Assembly: GCA_947470025.1 (NCBI GenBank)
Contig: CANIRU010000008.1
Location: 1 to 41,732, forward strand
DNA: 41,732 nucleotides
Origin: Chloroflexota bacterium
Lineage (GTDB): Bacteria > Chloroflexota > Dehalococcoidia > UBA2979
Direction: 5' to 3'
The translations under genes and the position numbers were made by a program. The stretch's first letter is position 1. Every line of letters begins with the position of its first letter. This document shows, piece by piece, positions 24,589 to 34,591 of the stretch. The notes beneath the pieces were generated by a model that saw only the letters and a list, made by a program, of their open reading frames with translations, made no database searches and was not told the origin of the DNA.

Positions 24589-25016
24589 TTCGTCGTCTCG
24601 ATGGGACGCTCGCCGAGGTCCTGGAAGAAGCGCAGCAGGTAGCCGTCCGGATCCTGCACCACGAACTGCCGGTTCCCCAGCAACGTTGCATCCCCGCGGT
24701 ACCAGCGGTCCTCGAGCACGAGATACGGCTCGCCGAGCGCGCATACCCGCTCGTATAGCGGCGCGATGTCCGCCACCTCGATCTGGAAGTTCACGCCTCG
24801 GCCATACGGGTGGCTGAGCTGGCCCGCGACGAGCGAGCGCGAGCGGCCCCGCGGCTGCTCAATCATCAGCTGCGCGCCCTCGCGATCGAGGTAGGCGAAG
24901 CCGTCCTCCGGGCGCGAGTACATCACCGCGAAGCCGAGGACATCACCGTAGAACGTCATGCTCCGTTCGATGTCGGAGACCACCAACTCCGGGATGAGCC
25001 GCGGCAATTCACTCAT
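24585..25016 (-). CDS. VOC superfamily protein (bleomycin-resistance/glyoxalase-like)
   Basis: Protein of 143 residues with the VOC repeat: IPELVVSDIERSMTFYGDVL and GFAVMYSRPEDGFAYLDREG, then VNFQIEVADIAPLYERVCAL and the C-terminal FVVQDPDGYLLRFFQDLGE with a likely metal-binding Glu/Arg region. It is typical of bleomycin-resistance-like proteins that bind or modify small molecules; the ligand is unknown. Its ATG overlaps the end of the upstream GNAT gene by eight bases, so the two form an operon. Confidence 0.88.
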   Translation of the reverse strand: MSELPRLIPELVVSDIERSMTFYGDVLGFAVMYSRPEDGFAYLDREGAQLMIEQPRGRSRSLVAGQLSHPYGRGVNFQIEVADIAPLYERVCALGEPYLVLEDRWYRGDATLLGNRQFVVQDPDGYLLRFFQDLGERPIETTN

Positions 25017-25527
25017 CGCGCGGCAGGAGGATCTGCATCACCGTCAGCGAGCGCCACGCACCGAACTTGTGACCCGCCTCGCGCTCCTCTCCCGCGATCT
25101 CGAAGCCCAGCGCGCGGTGCAGCGCGATGCTCGCCTCGTTCGTCGCCTCGATGCGCGCGAGCACGGTGTGAACGTCGAGGCGGCGCGCCTCCTCGAGGAG
25201 TGCGGCGAGCAGAGCGCGGCCCACGCCGCGACGGTGGAACTCCGGGCGGACATACAGCACATCCTCGCGGGTGAAGCGGTAGCCGAGGCGGGTCTTGTAG
25301 TAGGACAGGTACGCGAATGCCGCCACGGGCGCCTCGGGCAGGTCAGCGACGATCGCCAGCGCGCCGGGGCGGCGATGCTCCTCGAGCCAGTCGAGGCGCT
25401 GCGCGTCGCTCCACGGCTCGGTGTCCCACGTCGCGACGCCTGCAAGGATCTCGCGGTTGTAGATCGCGTTGATCGCGGGCAGGTCGGCCTCGGTAGCCGG
25501 TCGGATAGTGATGTCGCTCCCGGTCAT
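25009..25527 (-). CDS. GNAT acetyltransferase of the phosphinothricin acetyltransferase type
   Basis: Acetyltransferase of 172 residues. It opens with ITIRPATEADLPAINAIYNR, and the next segment NREILAGVATWDTEPWS is characteristic of Pat/YncA-like enzymes. The acetyl-CoA loop VRPEFHRRGVGRALLAALLE and the closing ATNEASIALHRALGFEIAGE are intact. Members acetylate amino-acid analogues such as phosphinothricin or methionine sulfone/sulfoximine. The actual substrate here is unknown. It is translationally coupled with the downstream VOC gene, and it diverges from the arginine leader region. Confidence 0.9.
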   Translation of the reverse strand: MTGSDITIRPATEADLPAINAIYNREILAGVATWDTEPWSDAQRLDWLEEHRRPGALAIVADLPEAPVAAFAYLSYYKTRLGYRFTREDVLYVRPEFHRRGVGRALLAALLEEARRLDVHTVLARIEATNEASIALHRALGFEIAGEEREAGHKFGAWRSLTVMQILLPRDE

Positions 25528-25599
25528 GACTGGAGTGTCCCACAGCCGTCTTCGCCCAGCGGTCGCGCAGCTGTGGATGCCGACACGCAGCCGTGCGGC

Positions 25600-25605
25600 T
25601 ATACT
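25600..25605 (+). promoter_or_regulatory. -10 box of the arginine operon leader
   Basis: TATACT matches five of six consensus bases. Transcription would begin near 25612, about 20 bases before the leader-peptide ATG. No convincing -35 hexamer is found 16-18 bases upstream. Confidence 0.5.
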
Positions 25606-25631
25606 CGGGCTTCTTCGAGGAGGGCCCCGGT

Positions 25632-25745
25632 ATGACGCTCGTTCGCGCCACCCGCACCCGTACGACCGACGCCGACGCACTCCGTCGACGAGCGCGTCGA
25701 CGCCGCCCGTCGGCGGCACCCCACCCTCGTCTCTCCGACGCCTAG
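25632..25745 (+). CDS. Arginine-rich leader peptide upstream of argJ (candidate attenuator)
   Basis: Short reading frame of 37 codons plus stop. AGGAGG (25618-25623) lies eight bases before the ATG, one of the best ribosome binding sites in the window. Eleven codons are arginine (positions 5, 8, 10, 18-20, 22-25 and 33), including the run RRRARRRR at 18-25, which uses CGT, CGA and CGC. The stop TAG is 12 bases before the argJ ATG. Leader peptides rich in the end-product amino acid are the hallmark of ribosome-mediated attenuation (known for trp, his, leu), and this one precedes an arginine biosynthesis operon. The peptide itself probably has no function. That it is translated and regulatory is an inference. 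Confidence 0.6.
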   Translation: MTLVRATRTRTTDADALRRRARRRRPSAAPHPRLSDA

Positions 25746-25750
25746 CGGAG
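25683..25750 (+). promoter_or_regulatory. Possible alternative RNA structures in the argJ leader
   Basis: Three local hairpins are visible. CGTCGACG at 25683-25690 pairs perfectly with the same sequence at 25695-25702 and covers the arginine-codon run. GCCGCC (25702-25707) pairs with GGCGGC (25712-25717). CTCCG (25733-25737) pairs with CGGAG (25746-25750), which is the argJ ribosome binding site. A competing pairing joins CGTCGG (25708-25713) to CCGACG (25735-25740) and would break the last two. Such a switch could link stalling at Arg codons to argJ translation, but GC-rich DNA gives chance pairings. Confidence 0.4.
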
Positions 25751-25757
25751 TCATCCC

Positions 25758-26999
25758 ATGACCGTTTCCGACACCCAGCCCGCCGCCATCGAATGGATCG
25801 AGGGGGGCGGGGTCACTACGCCGGGGGGCTTTGTCGCCGGTGGCACCTACGCGAACATCAAGACCTACGGCGCCGACCCGCGCATGGACGTCGGCATCCT
25901 CGCAGCGACCGAGTCGTGCACGGTCGCCGGCGTGTTCACACGCAACGTCGTCGTCGGCGAGCCGGTCGCGTGGGACCGCCGCGTGCTCGCCGCCGGGCGG
26001 CCGATGCGCGGCCTCGTGGTGAACTCCGGCAACGCCAACACCGTGACCGGCGACCAGGGCACGCGCGACTGCGCTCGCATGGCTGAACTGGCTGCCGAGG
26101 TCCTCGGCGTGACGGCGGACGAGATCCTCGTCGCCTCGACCGGGGTCATCGGGCGGCAGATGCCGATGGACAAGATGGAGCGCGGCATCAAGGCCGTGTC
26201 GCTGTCCTCGGAGGGTGGTTACCTCTTCACGCGCGCCATCATGACCACAGACACCCGCGAGAAGTCCGTCGCCGTGCGCGTCGAGGCCGGTGGGCGCACG
26301 TACACCGTGGGCGGCTGTGCCAAGGGCTCCGGGATGATCCACCCGGACATGGGCACGATGTTCGCCTTCATCACCACGGACGCCCCCGCCGACCGCGACT
26401 GGCTCCAGTCGACGCTGCGGGAGGTCACCGACCGCACGTTCAACATGGTCGATGTGGACATGGACACCTCGACGAGCGATACGGCGCTGCTGCTCGCCAG
26501 CGGCGCTGCCGGCGGCGACGTCGTGAACGCCGCACACCCCGCGGCCGCCGCGCTCGCCGCGGCGATCGAGGCGGTCTCGACACGCCTCGCACGGGCGATC
26601 GCCGGCGACGGCGAAGGCGCGACCGCACTCCTCGAGGTCGTCGCGGACGGCGCGGCGTCGCACGCGGACGCGGTGCTCGCGGCCAAGACGATCGCCTCGT
26701 CGCCGCTGATCAAGACGATGGTCACGGGCCGCGATCCGAACTGGGGCCGCGTGATGATGGCAGCGGGCCGCTCCGGCGCGACCTTCGACCAGCGTGCGGC
26801 CAGCGTCTGGATCGGCGAGCACTGCGTGCTCGACCACGGCCAGCCGACCGCGGTGGACCTCAAGCTCGTCTCGGCGGCGATGGCGGGCGGGGAGGTGCTG
26901 CTGCGCGTGCACCTCGGCGCCGGCGAGGCCAGCGCGACGGCGTGGGGCTGCAACCTGACGCACGAGTACGTGAACATCAACGCGGACTACACGACGTAG
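25758..26999 (+). CDS. argJ: Bifunctional ornithine acetyltransferase / N-acetylglutamate synthase
   Basis: First enzyme of the acetyl-recycling arginine pathway: it moves the acetyl group from N-acetylornithine to glutamate and may also use acetyl-CoA. Length 413 residues. The proenzyme cuts itself before a threonine; the motif is visible as CAKGSGMIHPDMGTM with Thr200 as nucleophile. The residue before it is Gly instead of the usual Ala. Other motifs are VVNSGNANTVTG, STGVIGRQMPMDK and the C-terminal GRDPNWGRVMMAAGRSG. CGGAG lies seven bases before the ATG and may be masked by an RNA hairpin. It is preceded by an Arg-rich leader peptide. argC is not adjacent. Confidence 0.96.
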   Translation: MTVSDTQPAAIEWIEGGGVTTPGGFVAGGTYANIKTYGADPRMDVGILAATESCTVAGVFTRNVVVGEPVAWDRRVLAAGRPMRGLVVNSGNANTVTGDQGTRDCARMAELAAEVLGVTADEILVASTGVIGRQMPMDKMERGIKAVSLSSEGGYLFTRAIMTTDTREKSVAVRVEAGGRTYTVGGCAKGSGMIHPDMGTMFAFITTDAPADRDWLQSTLREVTDRTFNMVDVDMDTSTSDTALLLASGAAGGDVVNAAHPAAAALAAAIEAVSTRLARAIAGDGEGATALLEVVADGAASHADAVLAAKTIASSPLIKTMVTGRDPNWGRVMMAAGRSGATFDQRAASVWIGEHCVLDHGQPTAVDLKLVSAAMAGGEVLLRVHLGAGEASATAWGCNLTHEYVNINADYTT

Positions 27000-27016: not shown

Positions 27017-27835
27017 ATGACGATGAACGAAGCGATGGGCGTCCCCGCCACCGTGATCAAGATCGGCGGCTCCACCCTCGGCGCGCAGGACACGTCCTTG
27101 CAGGACATTGTCGAACTGCACCGCGAGGGCCTGCGCCCGGTCGTTGTGCACGGCGGCGGCGCGATGATCAGCGACTGGCTGAAGCGCCTCGATATTGAGT
27201 CGCACTTCGTCGATGGCCTGCGCTCCACCAGCGCGCCCGCGATGGAAGTCGTCCTCGGCGTGCTGCGCGGCGTGGTGAACACGCAGTTGGTCAGCGAGAT
27301 CATCGCGCTCGGCGGACGTGCGGTCGGCCTCAGCGGCGTCGACGGCGCGATCGTGCGCGGTGAGCAGTACGACGAGCGCCTCGGTCTCGTGGGCCGCATC
27401 ACGGAGGCGAACGCCGACATCCTCACGTCCCTCCTCGACGCCGGGGTCATCCCCGTCATCGCCCCGATCGCCCTCGAGGCTCCTCACTCCGAGCAACAGG
27501 CCGGGACACCCGGCCGGGCGCAGGCGCTCAACATCAACGCGGACACGATGGCCGGCGAGATCGCCCGCGCCCTCAACGCCGCGCAGTTGATCTTCCTCAC
27601 GGACGTGGACGGCCTGATGGACGGGGCGGGCGCCGTCGTCGAATCGCTGGGCGCGGAGCAGGCCGAGCGGCTCCGCGCGGAGGGCGTCCTCTCGGGAGGT
27701 ATGATCCCGAAGATCGACGCCTGCTTCCGGGCTGCGGAAGTGGGCGTGGCGGCGTTCATCGCGAACGGCACTCAGCCTCACACGGTCCACCGGCTCGTCT
27801 CCGGTGAACGAATCGGGACGAGAATCGAGGCCTGA
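27017..27835 (+). CDS. argB: Acetylglutamate kinase
   Basis: Phosphorylates N-acetylglutamate with ATP, the second step of the pathway. Length 272 residues. Amino-acid kinase motifs: TVIKIGGSTLG (Lys of the ATP site), VVVHGGGAMISDWLKRL, ALNINADTMAGEIARAL, LIFLTDVDGLMDG and LSGGMIPKIDACFRA. Only about a dozen residues precede the first strand, so the mobile N-terminal helix of arginine-inhibited kinases appears to be missing. If so, feedback on the pathway must act elsewhere, for example through the leader. It lies 17 bases after argJ. Confidence 0.95.
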   Translation: MTMNEAMGVPATVIKIGGSTLGAQDTSLQDIVELHREGLRPVVVHGGGAMISDWLKRLDIESHFVDGLRSTSAPAMEVVLGVLRGVVNTQLVSEIIALGGRAVGLSGVDGAIVRGEQYDERLGLVGRITEANADILTSLLDAGVIPVIAPIALEAPHSEQQAGTPGRAQALNINADTMAGEIARALNAAQLIFLTDVDGLMDGAGAVVESLGAEQAERLRAEGVLSGGMIPKIDACFRAAEVGVAAFIANGTQPHTVHRLVSGERIGTRIEA

Positions 27836-27838
27836 TTC

Positions 27839-30706
27839 GTGGGGTTCTTCGACAATCGCGGTGACCTGGGGCCGCCCCCGGAGGCGTTCCGATTCGGCTC
27901 GTCCGGCAAGAGCACGCCGATGCCGTTCCGCTGGCTGGGACTCGCGGCGCTCGTGCTGGTCGGCTACCTCACCAGCAGCGTCCTCAAGACGATCTATGTC
28001 GATGTCCTCTGGTTTGACTCCGTCGGCTTCGGCGGCGTGTACCAGACGGAGCTGACGGCCCGCGTCGCGCTGTTCTTCGCGGGCGCGCTGATCGCGATCG
28101 CCGTGCTCGGCGGCAACATCATCCTCGCGCGGCGCTTCGCGCCCGTGGGCCTCGAGGAGTCGTTCATCGAGGAAGTCGACCCCGAGGCGATCCGGCGGAT
28201 CGTCGCCGTACTGCTGGTGGCGGGGACGCTGTTCCTCGGCGTGATCTTCGGCTCGGTGGCCGCGGGCAACTGGGAAACGATCCTCTCGTGGCTGAACGGC
28301 CAGCCGTTCGGCCGCGAAGACGCCCAGTTCCAGCGCGACATCGGGTTCTATGTGTTCAGCCTGCCGGCGCTGCACCTGATCCAGCAGTGGATGCTCAGCC
28401 TGCTCTTCGTGTCCGCGCTCGCGTCAGCCGGTGTCTACGCCCTCTCGATCTCGCTTCAGCGGTTCGAGCTGAACCTGAACCAGCAGATGCGCATCCACCT
28501 GTCCTTCCTAGTCGGCGCGATCTTTCTCGCCATCGCGTCGAGCACCATGCTCAACGTCTACGACATCGTCAGCTCCAGCGGCGGCATCGTGTATGGCGCC
28601 AAATACACGGACGTGAACGCGCGCCTGCCCGTGCGCTACCTCCTGGTTGCGCTCTCGCTGTTCGCGGCGACGGCGACGATCGCCAACCCGTTCCTCTCCG
28701 CGCAGGGCTTCCGTGCACCGCTCTTCGCAATCGGCCTGTGGGGCTTCGCGGGGATCGTGGGCGGAGTGCTCTACCCGGCGATCGTCCAGTCCGTGACCGT
28801 GGAGCCGAACGAGCGGCTCCGCGAGGCGCCGTACATCGAGCGGAACATCGCGGCGACGAGGTTCGCGTACGGCCTCGACCCCGTCGTGGAGACGCGCTTT
28901 CCCGCCGAGCAGGCGGTCAAGCAGGCGGACCTGGACGCGAACCCGGAGACGCTCGCGAACATCCGCCTGCTCGACCCGATCCCGCTGCGCGATACGTTCA
29001 ACCAGATCCAGGCGATCCGGCAGTTCTACACATTCAACGACGTGGACGTGGCGCGCTATACGATCGACGGCAAGACGCAGCAGGTCATGGCCGCTGCGCG
29101 CGAGCTCGACATCACGCGGGCGCAGGGCACGAACTGGACGCGCGAGCGCCTGCAGCTGACCCACGGCTACGGCGCGGTCATCGCGCCGGTCAACGAGGTG
29201 GTGAACGAGGGCCTGCCGAAGCTCATCACCTCAGAGATCCCGCCGAAGAGTGACGTGATCAAGATCACGGAGGCCGGTGCGCGCATCTACTTCGGTGAGA
29301 AGACGGACCAGTACGTCGTGGGGCGCTCCAGCGAGCCGGAGTTCGACTACCCGCTCGGCAACGGCAACGCGGCCACCTCATACCCTGAGGATCGCGGCAT
29401 CCAGCTCAACTCGACGCTGCGCCGCGCGATGCTCGCGTGGGAGCTGGGCGATGCCAACCTGCTGATCTCGGGCCAGATCACCTCGGAGTCACGGCTGCTG
29501 ATGGACCGGCAGATCCAGCAGCGCGTGCGGAAGGTCGCACCGTTTCTGCTGCTGGACTCCGACCCGTACATGGTCGTGATCGATGGCCGCATCATGTGGC
29601 TCCAGTCGGCCTACACGACCTCGACGCGGTTCCCATACGCGCAGCCCAGCGGCCTGCTGGGCGAGGTGAACTACGTGCGGAGCAGCGTGCAGATCACGAT
29701 CGACGCGCAGACCGGCGACATGCACTTCTACCTCCTCGACAGCCAGGATCCGATCGCGAAAACGTGGTCGAGGATCTTCCCCGGCCTGTTCGAGCCGAAC
29801 GACGCGATCCCCGCCGCGGTGCGGGCGCACATGCGCTACCCGCTGGACCTGTTCAAACTCCAATCGCAGCTCTACCTCCGGTATCACATCACCGATCCGA
29901 GCGTGTTCTTCATCGGCGAGGACGTGTGGAACATCCCGGCGGAGACGAAGAACAACAAGCTGCAGGCGATCGAGCCGTACTACGTGACCATGGTGCTGCC
30001 GGACGAGCAGCGCGCGGCTGGCGTCGACCGCGCGGAGTTCGTGCTGATCATGCCGTTCACGCCCCGCAACCGGCAGAACACCGTCGCCTGGCTGGCGGGC
30101 CGATCGGACGGCGGGAACCTCGGCAAGTTGCGCGCGTACCGGTTCCCGACGGAGGATCTCGTCTTCGGGCCCGCGCAGATCGAGGCGCGCATCGACCAGA
30201 ACCCGGGCATCTCGCAGCAGATCACACTGTGGAATCAGTCGGGCTCGTCCGTCGTGCGCGGCAACCTGCTGATGATCCCCGTCGGCACCTCGTTCCTCTT
30301 CGTCGAGCCGATCTACCTGCAGTCGGAGAACTCGAAGCTGCCCGAGCTCGTGCGTGTCGTTGTGGCGAACGGGACGCAGATCGCGATGGAGCGGACGTTC
30401 CCCGAGGCGCTCGATGTCGTCATGGGCAAGCGGCCGTCCTCGCTGGCGAACGGGCCGCAGGCAGCGCCAACCGCACCCGCCACGCAGCCCGGCGCGACGG
30501 CAACGCCGGCTCGCGGCACCGCGACCCCGACCGCCACGCCGAGGCCCGGCGCGACGCCGACGATCGCGCCCGCAACGATCGAGGAATTGCTGCGGCAGGC
30601 GCAGCAGTCGTCGAACACGACGCAACAAGAGCTCGACCGCCTGCGGGCGATCCTGGAAGCGATTCAGAAGCAGCTGCAGACGCAGCCGCAGACGCCCGCC
30701 CGATAA
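27839..30706 (+). CDS. UPF0182 family large membrane protein
   Basis: Protein of 955 residues of the widespread but uncharacterised UPF0182 family (COG1615). About seven transmembrane segments occupy the first 310 residues (FRWLGLAALVLVGYLTSSVL, YVDVLWFDSVGFGGVYQTEL and others). A large extracytoplasmic domain follows, with family motifs such as YIERNIAATRFAYGLD, YTFNDVDVARYTIDG and AYTTSTRFPYAQPSG. A Pro/Thr/Ala-rich linker and a C-terminal coiled coil (QQELDRLRAILEAIQKQLQT) end the protein. GTG start, four bases after argB. Why it sits inside an arginine operon is unknown; cotranscription is clear from spacing. Confidence 0.93.
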   Translation: MGFFDNRGDLGPPPEAFRFGSSGKSTPMPFRWLGLAALVLVGYLTSSVLKTIYVDVLWFDSVGFGGVYQTELTARVALFFAGALIAIAVLGGNIILARRFAPVGLEESFIEEVDPEAIRRIVAVLLVAGTLFLGVIFGSVAAGNWETILSWLNGQPFGREDAQFQRDIGFYVFSLPALHLIQQWMLSLLFVSALASAGVYALSISLQRFELNLNQQMRIHLSFLVGAIFLAIASSTMLNVYDIVSSSGGIVYGAKYTDVNARLPVRYLLVALSLFAATATIANPFLSAQGFRAPLFAIGLWGFAGIVGGVLYPAIVQSVTVEPNERLREAPYIERNIAATRFAYGLDPVVETRFPAEQAVKQADLDANPETLANIRLLDPIPLRDTFNQIQAIRQFYTFNDVDVARYTIDGKTQQVMAAARELDITRAQGTNWTRERLQLTHGYGAVIAPVNEVVNEGLPKLITSEIPPKSDVIKITEAGARIYFGEKTDQYVVGRSSEPEFDYPLGNGNAATSYPEDRGIQLNSTLRRAMLAWELGDANLLISGQITSESRLLMDRQIQQRVRKVAPFLLLDSDPYMVVIDGRIMWLQSAYTTSTRFPYAQPSGLLGEVNYVRSSVQITIDAQTGDMHFYLLDSQDPIAKTWSRIFPGLFEPNDAIPAAVRAHMRYPLDLFKLQSQLYLRYHITDPSVFFIGEDVWNIPAETKNNKLQAIEPYYVTMVLPDEQRAAGVDRAEFVLIMPFTPRNRQNTVAWLAGRSDGGNLGKLRAYRFPTEDLVFGPAQIEARIDQNPGISQQITLWNQSGSSVVRGNLLMIPVGTSFLFVEPIYLQSENSKLPELVRVVVANGTQIAMERTFPEALDVVMGKRPSSLANGPQAAPTAPATQPGATATPARGTATPTATPRPGATPTIAPATIEELLRQAQQSSNTTQQELDRLRAILEAIQKQLQTQPQTPAR

Positions 30707-30729: not shown

Positions 30730-31920
30730 GTGGGCAACATCCCAGCGCGTGAAGCCGTCGTGCACATGACCACGTACCGCCGCCAGCCGCTGACGCTCGT
30801 GCGCGGCCAGGGCACGCGCGTTTTCGACGACGAGGGCCGCAGCTACCTCGACTTCATCGCCGGCATCGCCGTCGACGCGCTGGGCCACGCCCACCCCGGG
30901 CTCACCGAGGTGATCGCGAAGCAGGCGGGCACGCTGATCCAGGTGTCGAACCTCTTCTACACCGAGCCGCAGATTGAGCTGGCGGAGCTCCTCGTCGGTA
31001 ACTCCGCGCTCGACCGCGTCTTCTTCTGCAACTCGGGCGCCGAGGCGAATGAGGCGGCGATCAAGATGGCCCGCAAGTGGGGCATCCTGAACCGCAACGG
31101 CGCGTACGAAATCATCGCGACGCACAACGGCTTCCACGGCCGCACGCTCGGCAGCGTCGCCGCCACCGGCACGCCCCGCTACCGCGACCCGTTCGGCCCG
31201 ATGATCCCCGGCTTCATCTTCGTCGACTACGACGACGTCGACGCGATCAAGGCGGCGACCACCGAGCACACCGCGGCGATCCTCCTGGAGCCGATCCAGG
31301 GCGAAGGCGGCGTGAACGTGCCCGCGCCCGACTACCTGAAGCGCGTGCGCGAATGGTGCGACCAGCAGGGCATTCTGCTCATCCTCGACGAGGTGCAGAC
31401 GGGCACGGGCCGCACCGGCACGATGTGGGCGTACGAGCAGGCGGGCATCGAGCCGGACATCATGACGCTGGCGAAGGGCCTGGGCGGCGGTGTGCCGATC
31501 GGCGCGATGCTCGCGAAGGAGGCCTGCGCCATCTTCGAGCCCGGTGACCACGGCTCCACCTTTGGCGGCAACGCCCTGTCGTCGGCGGCCGGCGCGTACG
31601 TCGTGCGCCAGCTCGTCGAGGGCGGCGTGCTCCAGAACGTGCAGGCGCGCGGCGAGCAGCTCGAGAAGCGCCTCGCCGGCCTCGAGGATCGCTCTCCGCT
31701 GGTGGCGGGTCAGCGAGGCGTGGGGCTGCTGCGGGGCCTCGTGTTCGCGTCCGACATCGCGCCGGACGTGGCGACGAAGGCGATGGCGCACGGGCTCCTC
31801 GTGAACCCGGTGCGCCCGAACGTCGTGCGGTTCCTGCCGCCGTTGAACGTCTCCGCCGAGGAGATTGATGAGGCCATCGACATCATCGACGCGGTGCTGA
31901 CGGAGATCGCGGCGGGATAG
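30730..31920 (+). CDS. argD: Acetylornithine aminotransferase
   Basis: PLP enzyme of 396 residues that converts N-acetylglutamate semialdehyde to N-acetylornithine using glutamate. Motifs: GRSYLDFIAGIAVDALGHAH near the N-terminus, FFCNSGAEANEAAIKMARKW, HNGFHGRTLGSVAATG, EPIQGEGGVNVP, LILDEVQTGTGRTGTMWAYE and the PLP lysine in TLAKGLGGGVPIGAML. A GTG start is supported by GAGGAGG six bases upstream. It resumes the arginine pathway after the UPF0182 gene. Related class-III aminotransferases can act on other omega-amines, but context settles the role. Confidence 0.95.
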   Translation: MGNIPAREAVVHMTTYRRQPLTLVRGQGTRVFDDEGRSYLDFIAGIAVDALGHAHPGLTEVIAKQAGTLIQVSNLFYTEPQIELAELLVGNSALDRVFFCNSGAEANEAAIKMARKWGILNRNGAYEIIATHNGFHGRTLGSVAATGTPRYRDPFGPMIPGFIFVDYDDVDAIKAATTEHTAAILLEPIQGEGGVNVPAPDYLKRVREWCDQQGILLILDEVQTGTGRTGTMWAYEQAGIEPDIMTLAKGLGGGVPIGAMLAKEACAIFEPGDHGSTFGGNALSSAAGAYVVRQLVEGGVLQNVQARGEQLEKRLAGLEDRSPLVAGQRGVGLLRGLVFASDIAPDVATKAMAHGLLVNPVRPNVVRFLPPLNVSAEEIDEAIDIIDAVLTEIAAG

Positions 31921-31939: not shown

Positions 31940-34591
31940 TTGTCGGGGCCCCTCGGACGGCTCTCAGTTCAGATCGCGCTGGGGCCAGTGCTTGTGATCG
32001 CACTGGTGGGCGCTGCCATGCTCTGGCGCGTGAACGGCGACCTGCACCAGCAGGCGGAGATCCGCTTCGCCGACCAGGTGAAGCTGTCCGTGATGCAGGT
32101 CGACGACCGCGTGGATAGCGACGTGCGGCAGCGCGTCGTGAGCGCGACGGTCCTCGCCAGCCAGCAGCAGTTCCTGAGCGCGATCCAGGCGAGCAACATC
32201 AACGCCGCAGTGCAGCTCGCAACCGCGTACATGTCGCGTACCAGCCTCGCGCTCTCGGGGGCGAGCGGGATCCGCGTGTACGGGCCGAACGGCAACCTGA
32301 TGATGCGCGCGGAGGCCACACAGAACGTCGCGCAACGCGTCGTGCCGGTCGAGGTGCTGAGCGTCCTGCAGTCGGGACGCGCCGATGGCTTTGTCCGCCT
32401 CGACGAGACGATGGGCCTCGCGATGTCGGGGATCTCGCCGATCCTCGGTTCGGACGGCCGCCCGATCGGGGTCGTCGAGGCGATCACCTCGCTCGACCGG
32501 ACATTCGCCGTCGCCGCGGCCGGCGTCGTCAACACGGACGTCGCCGTGATCAGCGGCGGGCGCGTGACCGCGAAGTCGGATCCGGGCGTTGAGCTCGACC
32601 CCACCGCCGTGACCGAAGACCTGCGGCGGCGCACGAAGGAATCACCTGTCCACGTGGCGTTCGCCGGCCACGAGTATCTGGTCGGGATCGCCACCTACCG
32701 CGACGCGGCGGGGACAGCGATCGGCGATATCTACCTCGCGATCGACCGCGAACGGATCAACGACACGGTGGTCGAGACGCGCGGTTCTATCCTGCGCACG
32801 ATGGTGGTCGCGATGCTGTTCGCGACGGGCGCGGCATGGCTCTTTGGCTGGCTGGCGCTGCGTCCGATGCAGCCGCTGCTGGCTGCCGCCGGCCGCCTCC
32901 AGCAGAACGACCTCGAAAGTCCCGTGCCGGCGAGCGGGCCCACCGAGCTCCGACAGCTGAGCGAGGCGATGGAGGACATGCGCCTCGCCATCCGCCAGAG
33001 CCGTGAGGCGCTCCAGAGTGCCAACCGCGACCTCGCGAGCCGCGTGTCCACCTCGGACGCCAGCCTGTCCGAGGTCACTCAGGACCTGGACGTCATGCAG
33101 TCGGTCGTCGCCCAGCTCGCGGGCGAGTCCGCCGGCGGACTCCCGAGCGTCACCGAGGAACTGATCCGGCTCGAGTGGGTCGATGGCGCGTTCATCGCCC
33201 TGGCGACGGAGGACGGCGCGCTGTCCAGCGCGGCGAGCGCCGGTCTGCCTCCTGGCGCCGCGAGCGCGGCGCTCGAGGTGATCGAGAAGTACATGGCGCA
33301 ATCCCCGTTGGCCGAGATCAGCATCGAGGACACGGCCGCGCACCTCGAATCGCAGCGCCTCCCCGCGTGGCTCATCGGCGGCCTCGCCGTGGCGCCGATG
33401 CAGACGCCGGACGGCACGGCGGGCGTCGTCGTCGTCACCTCGGTAGGTGCGATGCGGCCGACAGCGCAACGCCGCGAGCTCCTGCGCTCGATTGCGCACG
33501 AGGTCACGGCGACCCTCGAACGCTCCGAGCTCGCCGACGAGGTCGAGGAGAACCGGCGCGTCGCGGAGGCCGTGCTGCGCGAGATGGCGGACGGCGTCGT
33601 CGTCGTCGACCACCTTAGCATCGGCCAGATCTGCAACCCGGCCGCCGCGCGGCTCCTCGGCGTGACACGCGCGGACATCATTGGGCACCGGGCGGACGAA
33701 TGGCTGCCCGTCGCCGCAGCCGCGCTCGACACACTCCGCCTGCGGGCGGGCGAGACGCGCAGCAGCGCGTCGCCCGTGCTCCTCGAGTCGGTCGGGCGTC
33801 AACTAGCGATCACGACGGGGCCGTTCCCCGACCCGGACCCCGCGCGGGCCGGCGTGATCCTGCTGATCCGTGACCTCTCCGCGGAGGCAGAGGCCGAGCG
33901 CGTGAAGCGCGATTTCGTATCCATGGTTGGGCACGAGCTGCGGACGCCGCTCACCCTGATCCGCACAACGATCGACCTGCTGCACGGCCACGACGCCGGC
34001 GACCTGAACGCCACGCAGGAGCGCATCGTCGAGGTGCTCCGCCAGAACTCCGAGCGGCTGATGACGCTGATCAGCGACCTGCTGGACATGTCGGCGCTGG
34101 ACTCCGGGCGGATGCAGATCGTCCCCACCTCCGTCGACCTCATCGAGATCGTCCGCCGTGCGGTCCGCGGCGCCGCAGACCAGGCGAGAGATCGGAAGCA
34201 CCAGCTCCGCGTGGTCCTGCCTGAGGACGCGGTCACGGTGACGGTCTGGGCGGACGGCCCGCGCGTGGAGCAGGTCCTGTCCAACCTGCTCTCAAACGCG
34301 ATCAAGTACACCCCGCCCGGGGGCGACATCGAAGTACGCATCGAGGGCAACCGCGCGTTCGCCTCGGTCGCCGTGGCGGACAGCGGCATCGGCATCCCGC
34401 CCGAGGAGCAGGCCGGGCTGTTCGAGAAGTTCTACCGGACGAGCGCCGGACGGCGTACGACGGGCGGCACCGGCCTCGGCCTGGCGATCGCGCGCTCGAT
34501 CGTGGAGTTGCACGGTGGCGAGATCGTCTGCGACTCCGACGGACAGACCGGGACCACGTTCACCTTCACCCTACCGCGCCGCCCGCTATGA
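31940..34591 (+). CDS. Membrane sensor histidine kinase with HAMP, GAF-like and PAS domains
   Basis: Hybrid-free sensor kinase of 883 residues starting at TTG, supported by GGGAAGG seven bases upstream. Order: transmembrane segment (about 10-30, LGPVLVIALVGAAML), extracytoplasmic sensor domain (to about 270), second segment (TMVVAMLFATGAAWLFGWLA), HAMP and coiled coil (about 300-375), GAF-like domain (390-520), PAS (530-640), HisKA with His665 in SMVGHELRTPLTLIRTTIDL, and the ATPase domain (NLLSNAIKYTPPGG, ADSGIGIP, GTGLGLAIARSIVELHGG). No response regulator is adjacent, so it is an orphan. It lies 20 bases after argD and before argG, so it is probably cotranscribed with arginine genes. Confidence 0.95.
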   Translation: MSGPLGRLSVQIALGPVLVIALVGAAMLWRVNGDLHQQAEIRFADQVKLSVMQVDDRVDSDVRQRVVSATVLASQQQFLSAIQASNINAAVQLATAYMSRTSLALSGASGIRVYGPNGNLMMRAEATQNVAQRVVPVEVLSVLQSGRADGFVRLDETMGLAMSGISPILGSDGRPIGVVEAITSLDRTFAVAAAGVVNTDVAVISGGRVTAKSDPGVELDPTAVTEDLRRRTKESPVHVAFAGHEYLVGIATYRDAAGTAIGDIYLAIDRERINDTVVETRGSILRTMVVAMLFATGAAWLFGWLALRPMQPLLAAAGRLQQNDLESPVPASGPTELRQLSEAMEDMRLAIRQSREALQSANRDLASRVSTSDASLSEVTQDLDVMQSVVAQLAGESAGGLPSVTEELIRLEWVDGAFIALATEDGALSSAASAGLPPGAASAALEVIEKYMAQSPLAEISIEDTAAHLESQRLPAWLIGGLAVAPMQTPDGTAGVVVVTSVGAMRPTAQRRELLRSIAHEVTATLERSELADEVEENRRVAEAVLREMADGVVVVDHLSIGQICNPAAARLLGVTRADIIGHRADEWLPVAAAALDTLRLRAGETRSSASPVLLESVGRQLAITTGPFPDPDPARAGVILLIRDLSAEAEAERVKRDFVSMVGHELRTPLTLIRTTIDLLHGHDAGDLNATQERIVEVLRQNSERLMTLISDLLDMSALDSGRMQIVPTSVDLIEIVRRAVRGAADQARDRKHQLRVVLPEDAVTVTVWADGPRVEQVLSNLLSNAIKYTPPGGDIEVRIEGNRAFASVAVADSGIGIPPEEQAGLFEKFYRTSAGRRTTGGTGLGLAIARSIVELHGGEIVCDSDGQTGTTFTFTLPRRPL

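Follow-up and report, generated by a model that had tools for sequence, protein, structure and literature searches.

A short leader with clustered arginine codons ahead of argJ in Dehalococcoidia: a probable arginine sensor of terminator-less design

In a freshwater bacterium of the class Dehalococcoidia, a short reading frame with many arginine codons stands directly before argJ. Such an arrangement raises the question of whether this frame senses arginine for the operon behind it and, if so, in which way. The window that we analysed is the whole stretch of DNA, 41,732 nucleotides long, from contig 8 of the 2.17-Mb assembly of this organism. The elements around the frame are as follows:

25009-25524, minus strand: divergent gene for a GNAT acetyltransferase, the upstream neighbour of the leader (profile search)
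25600-25605, plus strand: TATACT, the -10-like box of the operon promoter (read from the sequence)
25618-25623, plus strand: AGGAGG, the leader ribosome-binding site (read from the sequence)
25632-25745, plus strand: leader open reading frame, 37 codons and TAG, MTLVRATRTRTTDADALRRRARRRRPSAAPHPRLSDA (sequence; frames of this kind in 14 genomes from five genera)
25683-25706, plus strand: candidate regulatory-codon run RRRARRRR, codons 18-25 (in-frame clustering above shuffles; CGT preference)
25698-25775, plus strand: C-rich, G-poor segment reaching from the last arginine codons of the run into argJ, a possible Rho-loading or unstructured segment (C-G skew 0.35)
25746-25750, plus strand: CGGAG, the argJ ribosome-binding site, immediately 3' of the leader stop (sequence)

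Direct reading places the leader ATG at 25632, its TAG at 25743-25745 and the argJ ATG at 25758, 12 bases past the leader stop. These coordinates bear out what an earlier, sequence-only reading had claimed about the 37-codon frame, its AGGAGG site and its distance from argJ, and the eleven arginine codons that it had counted, those of RRRARRRR included, are indeed there. The same reading had rightly seen a TATACT box before the leader but had set the spacing at about 20 bases, while the ATG actually stands 26 bases after the box. A sigma-70 scan near argJ returned no full promoter, so that the -35 element is unrecognised. As for the leader's own ribosome-binding site (positions 25618-25640), strong pairing is predicted there, unlike at the argJ site; according to folding prediction, opening it would cost 13-20 kcal/mol in 9 of 13 genomes.

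Pfam matches agree with the earlier claim that the leader precedes an arginine operon. Downstream gene order is argJ, argB, a UPF0182 gene, a class-III aminotransferase gene (argD), a sensor histidine kinase gene and argG:

25758-26999, plus strand: argJ (Pfam ArgJ, 444 bits)
27017-27835, plus strand: argB, N-acetylglutamate kinase with a short N-terminus (Pfam AA_kinase; PDB alignments begin at query residue 12)
27839-30706, plus strand: UPF0182 membrane protein gene, 955 residues, between argB and argD (Pfam UPF0182, 880 bits)
30736-31920, plus strand: argD-like class-III aminotransferase gene (Pfam Aminotran_3, 382 bits; start codon provisional)
31940-34591 of the window: sensor histidine kinase gene (dCache, HAMP, PAS), between argD and argG

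Control of this operon by ArgR was considered and rejected: a profile search detected no ArgR (PF01316) in any of the 44 family genomes, the controls having matched in 9 genomes. The product of argB had been suspected to lack the N-terminal helix linked to feedback inhibition, and PDB alignments support this suspicion. Only 11 residues precede the first strand of ArgB, against at least 23 in acetylglutamate kinase chains that we take to be of the arginine-sensitive type. The point where the alignments begin, residue 12 of this ArgB, corresponds to residues 24-59 of those chains (tags included) and to residue 5 of the E. coli enzyme. Such a short N-terminus fits a loss of the helix and, with it, of arginine feedback. 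We would also like to mention three MAGs titled Sandaracinaceae or Proteobacteria (L046, L048 and L049), whose argJ is 57-58% identical to this Dehalococcoidia argJ; mislabelled titles or a transfer of the gene could account for this.

Is the leader a peculiarity of one genome? Within the family, argJ is present in 39 of 44 genomes, and for genera g1, g7, g12, g13 and g15 our survey covered the 14 genomes whose argJ upstream region was readable. In every one of them an ATG frame of 26-42 codons lies between a TATACT box and argJ, and its arginine codons are clustered, mostly 10-16 codons before the stop. A purine-rich, Shine-Dalgarno-like site before the leader is kept in all leader-bearing relatives, as are the ATG and the stop. 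Most of the remaining residues drift and differ widely between genera, as can be seen from MTIVPTGTRSTRSALRRPGSRACRPLAVPHPRPSDD, MTTWSALLSPSAAGAAWMGTCVRRRRVAITGSHRTSS, MTTQTRQDAPRLEPLRLRRRRATVAHSTPAQ, MTTLTTGLIAQTAASASVRRSRTEHAHSSASRS and MTTTRALRHTAVLRVRRARTGFRRLG. Conservation of the arginine-run frame amid drift of its other residues, which the earlier reading had offered as a check on related genomes, is thus what these 14 genomes and five genera present. Two genomes are exceptional: in G003 the run stands 20-23 codons before the stop, and in G001 the arginine codons are scattered, with one pair only. The distance from the leader stop to the argJ ATG is 10-16 bases in g1, g7, g13 and g15; in g12 it is 45-55 bases.

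Across most of the family, a TATACT-like box is located approximately 30-60 bases before the first frame, be it the leader or argJ. In most of the other genera it is argJ itself that starts approximately 30-60 bases after the box, with no leader between them, and a few genera have no recognisable box. The ArgJ tree gives a single gain of the leader (support 77/94), compared with 9.9 changes needed under shuffled labels.

Arginine codons may well arise by accident, and we compared the leaders of nine lineages with 2000 dinucleotide-preserving shuffles, keeping in mind that these lineages are related and that their independence is overstated. The total number of arginine codons, 66 against 56.5 expected (sd 6.0; p 0.07), is near expectation because GC-rich DNA yields arginine codons in any frame; an excess of total arginine was accordingly dropped as an argument for the leader. 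Clustering behaves differently, so that of the enrichment anticipated for orthologous leaders it is the clustering that stands and the total content that does not. The best five-codon windows sum to 31 arginine codons against 22.8 (sd 2.2), a value reached in none of the 2000 shuffles, and arginine-arginine pairs number 22 against 11.0 (p 0.002). Both excesses are confined to the reading frame, the other two frames being at expectation.

Codon choice points in the same direction. CGT makes up 37% of the CGN codons in leaders and 8% of those in argJ (p 1e-7). A third-base T is likewise found in 37% of leader CGN codons compared with 10% of the four-fold codons for other amino acids within these leaders (p 6e-6). 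Such a bias implies that the arginine codons themselves were chosen. Slower decoding or RNA structure are candidate reasons for this preference for CGT, a codon that argJ seldom uses in these genomes. In pairwise comparisons, arginine sites were replaced in 4 of 43 cases and other sites in 21 of 103, a difference in the right direction that is not significant (p 0.15).

Leaders of related appearance precede other biosynthetic genes in the same genomes. Upstream of trpE we found a T-box (RF00230, 47.7 bits, E 2.3e-9) with the specifier UGG; its score lies below the gathering score, so that the gathering-score Rfam scan missed it and it surfaced below the cut-off in a sensitive scan. On the 3' side of the T-box, before trpE, there is a leader with tryptophan runs (QWSWWW, RGRWWW, GVWRWRR, RAWWWR), the stop of which, in most genomes, runs into the trpE start or lies right against it. 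Such a layout suggests that trpE may be under tandem control, by tRNA and by the leader. In L219 the T-box occupies positions 429-709 and the next open reading frame reaches the trpE start, a region shared by L213, L214, L215, L217, L218, L220, L221, L222, L226 and L227; G007 has a Trp leader without a detected T-box motif.

A Leu/Val leader stands before ilvB in each of the 14 genomes examined (L181-L194), and in many of them it ends in LVLVLT. A GC hairpin and a T-rich tail follow, and the terminator scan, made on L189 only, placed a terminator at 3253-3235 on the minus strand. By its layout, this appears to be an ordinary branched-chain attenuator in Dehalococcoidia. With arginine before argJ, tryptophan before trpE and leucine and valine before ilvB, run residue and pathway thus agree three times over. 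The tryptophan and arginine leaders also appear to have a terminator-less design in common. No leader was seen before argC in the family or in 30 other members of the class, nor before hisD and hom in the scans made, where hisD looks operon-internal and the hom scan was coarse.

Overall, we regard it as very likely that the frame before argJ is an arginine-sensing leader. As to the whole explanation, on balance we favour a translated leader that would sense charged tRNA-Arg and use the position of its ribosome to control the argJ-argB-argD operon. When arginine is plentiful, ribosomes would pass the arginine codons and terminate at the TAG; a terminating ribosome, placed on or beside the argJ ribosome-binding site (TAGCGGAG, seen again in g1 and g15), would limit initiation at argJ. 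When arginine is short, the ribosome would stall at the arginine run, approximately 30-45 nucleotides upstream, and leave the argJ site free, so that argJ would be translated and the operon switched on. Translation of the leader, stalling at the run, a rise of argJ expression under arginine limitation and a block at initiation are all steps that we infer from the sequence.

A stop touching or near the argJ site and a run mostly 30-45 bases upstream, outside g12, suit control by ribosome position. In g12 the stop is too far away for a ribosome there to cover the argJ site, which speaks against control by ribosome position and leaves this genus unexplained by it. With the leader stop so close, re-initiation could just as well favour argJ. 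This particular coupling, by the position of the leader ribosome at argJ initiation, is thus put forward tentatively.

Rho-dependent attenuation, the main rival though rather unlikely in our view, would have the leader ribosome decide whether Rho loads onto the C-rich segment and hence whether transcription stops. It is the composition of this segment that brings Rho to mind. From -60 to +18 relative to argJ, C exceeds G in all 12 leaders tested (C-G skew 0.15-0.44, median 0.34). The value for leaderless genomes is -0.02; coding windows give 0.01 (sd 0.11), and 0.2% of these windows reach the leader median. The spacer between leader and argJ in g12 is C-rich too, though untranslated, and therefore the peptide does not explain the C-richness; a similar change of skew precedes trpE in most Trp leaders. 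Of 16 genomes, 14 have a gene for Rho that scores above the cut-off, and the two that lack one are incomplete; G000 itself, whose assembly is incomplete, gave no full-length rho match. A precedent exists in Salmonella orf34-speF, where Rho, a CU-rich segment and two arginine codons come together (PMC6386406). However, a ribosome stalled upstream would bare the C-rich RNA and by itself favour termination when arginine is short, the opposite of what a biosynthetic operon calls for; stalling at the arginine codons would have to hide the segment or keep the polymerase coupled. The C-richness may also merely keep the argJ site unstructured.

An RNA switch, in which leader RNA would pair with the argJ ribosome-binding site until a ribosome stalled at the run broke the pairing (translational attenuation), seems to us improbable. 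In G000 and G001, a CUCCG at the start of the arginine codons can pair with the CGGAG of the argJ site, and in G067 removing the 5' end of the leader lowers the predicted opening cost from 10.1 to approximately 5 kcal/mol. Nevertheless, when a ribosome was placed at each leader codon and the RNA refolded, the argJ site did not open consistently at the arginine codons of 13 leaders, and folding did not show the site to be more buried than in leaderless genomes, so that the RNA switch gets no support. The argJ leader does form strong hairpins; a common alternative fold across genera was not seen, and an Rfam search at argJ gave no match up to E 1.

It is also hardly probable that the frame is not regulatory at all, being either a chance product of GC-rich DNA that has had little time to diverge or the gene of a small functional protein. 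Total arginine near expectation, arginine sites that are not significantly more conserved than others and the near absence of a run in G001 would all be in line with such an origin. Against it stand the same frame, place and arginine clustering in five genera, ArgJ of the other four being about 66-72% identical to the query, together with the CGT bias of the leader arginine codons and the pathway-matched leaders of trpE (Trp) and ilvB (Leu/Val); a conserved small protein is hard to reconcile with the drift at most other residues.

Classical trp-type transcription attenuation by terminator and antiterminator hairpins, which this lineage uses at ilvB and which the strong hairpins of the argJ leader might recall, is highly improbable because the argJ leader has no terminator: the scan that picks up the ilvB terminator of this genome finds none on either strand at 25450-25900, the gap between leader and argJ included, and this gap has no U-tract and leaves no room. 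The arginine attenuator that the sequence-only reading had proposed is thus partly borne out: the conserved leader with clustered arginine codons, the undetected ArgR and the short N-terminus of ArgB support it, while transcription attenuation of the classical kind finds no support.

Control by leader peptides is textbook knowledge for Trp, His, Leu, Ile/Val, Thr and Phe, arginine synthesis being the textbook domain of ArgR. A short search of the open-access literature returned no earlier leader of this kind at an arginine biosynthetic operon, which is not proof of absence. We are inclined to suggest, as a possibility and with due reserve, that one branch of the Dehalococcoidia employs a terminator-less design, composed of a codon run, a stretch rich in C and a stop right at the gene, with arginine at argJ and, together with a T-box, tryptophan at trpE. 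It may rely on where the ribosome stands, and on Rho or initiation, in place of a terminator hairpin; among attenuators of arginine biosynthetic operons, the one at argJ would then be the first to use arginine codons.

Among known systems, Bacillus subtilis rtpLP, a leader before the anti-TRAP gene (rtpA/yczA) that acts by ribosome position together with a T-box, resembles the argJ leader in being short, with runs of regulatory codons, a stop beside the ribosome-binding site of the next gene, at argJ outside g12, and no terminator between them; the trpE leader of our lineage even has a T-box in front. It differs in that the argJ leader would read arginine, lacks a T-box and targets a biosynthetic operon, and we claim no homology. 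The fungal arginine attenuator peptide (arg-2/CPA1) is likewise encoded upstream of an arginine-pathway gene; it requires a conserved peptide and arginine itself, whereas the argJ leader has no conserved peptide beyond its arginines and its other residues drift.

Closer in codon content is Salmonella orf34-speF, in which two consecutive arginine codons of a short leader sense arginine, with a CU-rich segment and Rho; however, it controls ornithine decarboxylase, and thus polyamines rather than arginine synthesis, and has another leader and a long downstream structure (PMC6386406). Candidate cys leaders of Actinobacteria also combine a codon run with the lack of a terminator, and Rho was suggested as an option for them; unlike the argJ leader, nothing in that survey lies upstream of arginine operons (PMC1262725). 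The polycysteine short ORFs of mycobacteria are reported to be cysteine-responsive attenuators that share with the argJ leader a run of end-product codons, the lack of a terminator and, as proposed for argJ, control of the next gene's translation by ribosome speed, but they read cysteine and are leaderless, and the pairing over the ribosome-binding site described for them is unsupported at argJ (Canestrari 2020, as described in PMC9031893 and PMC13236596).

Judged against these systems, a leader with arginine codons (speF) and terminator-less codon-run leaders (cysteine, mycobacteria) were already known, and what would be new is the place of the leader, before an operon for arginine biosynthesis. 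If our interpretation is true, a lineage without detected ArgR reads its arginine supply through arginine codons, and arginine joins the list of amino acids under leader-peptide control. The terminator-less Trp and Arg leaders would then represent two natural examples of one design, open to comparison with each other.
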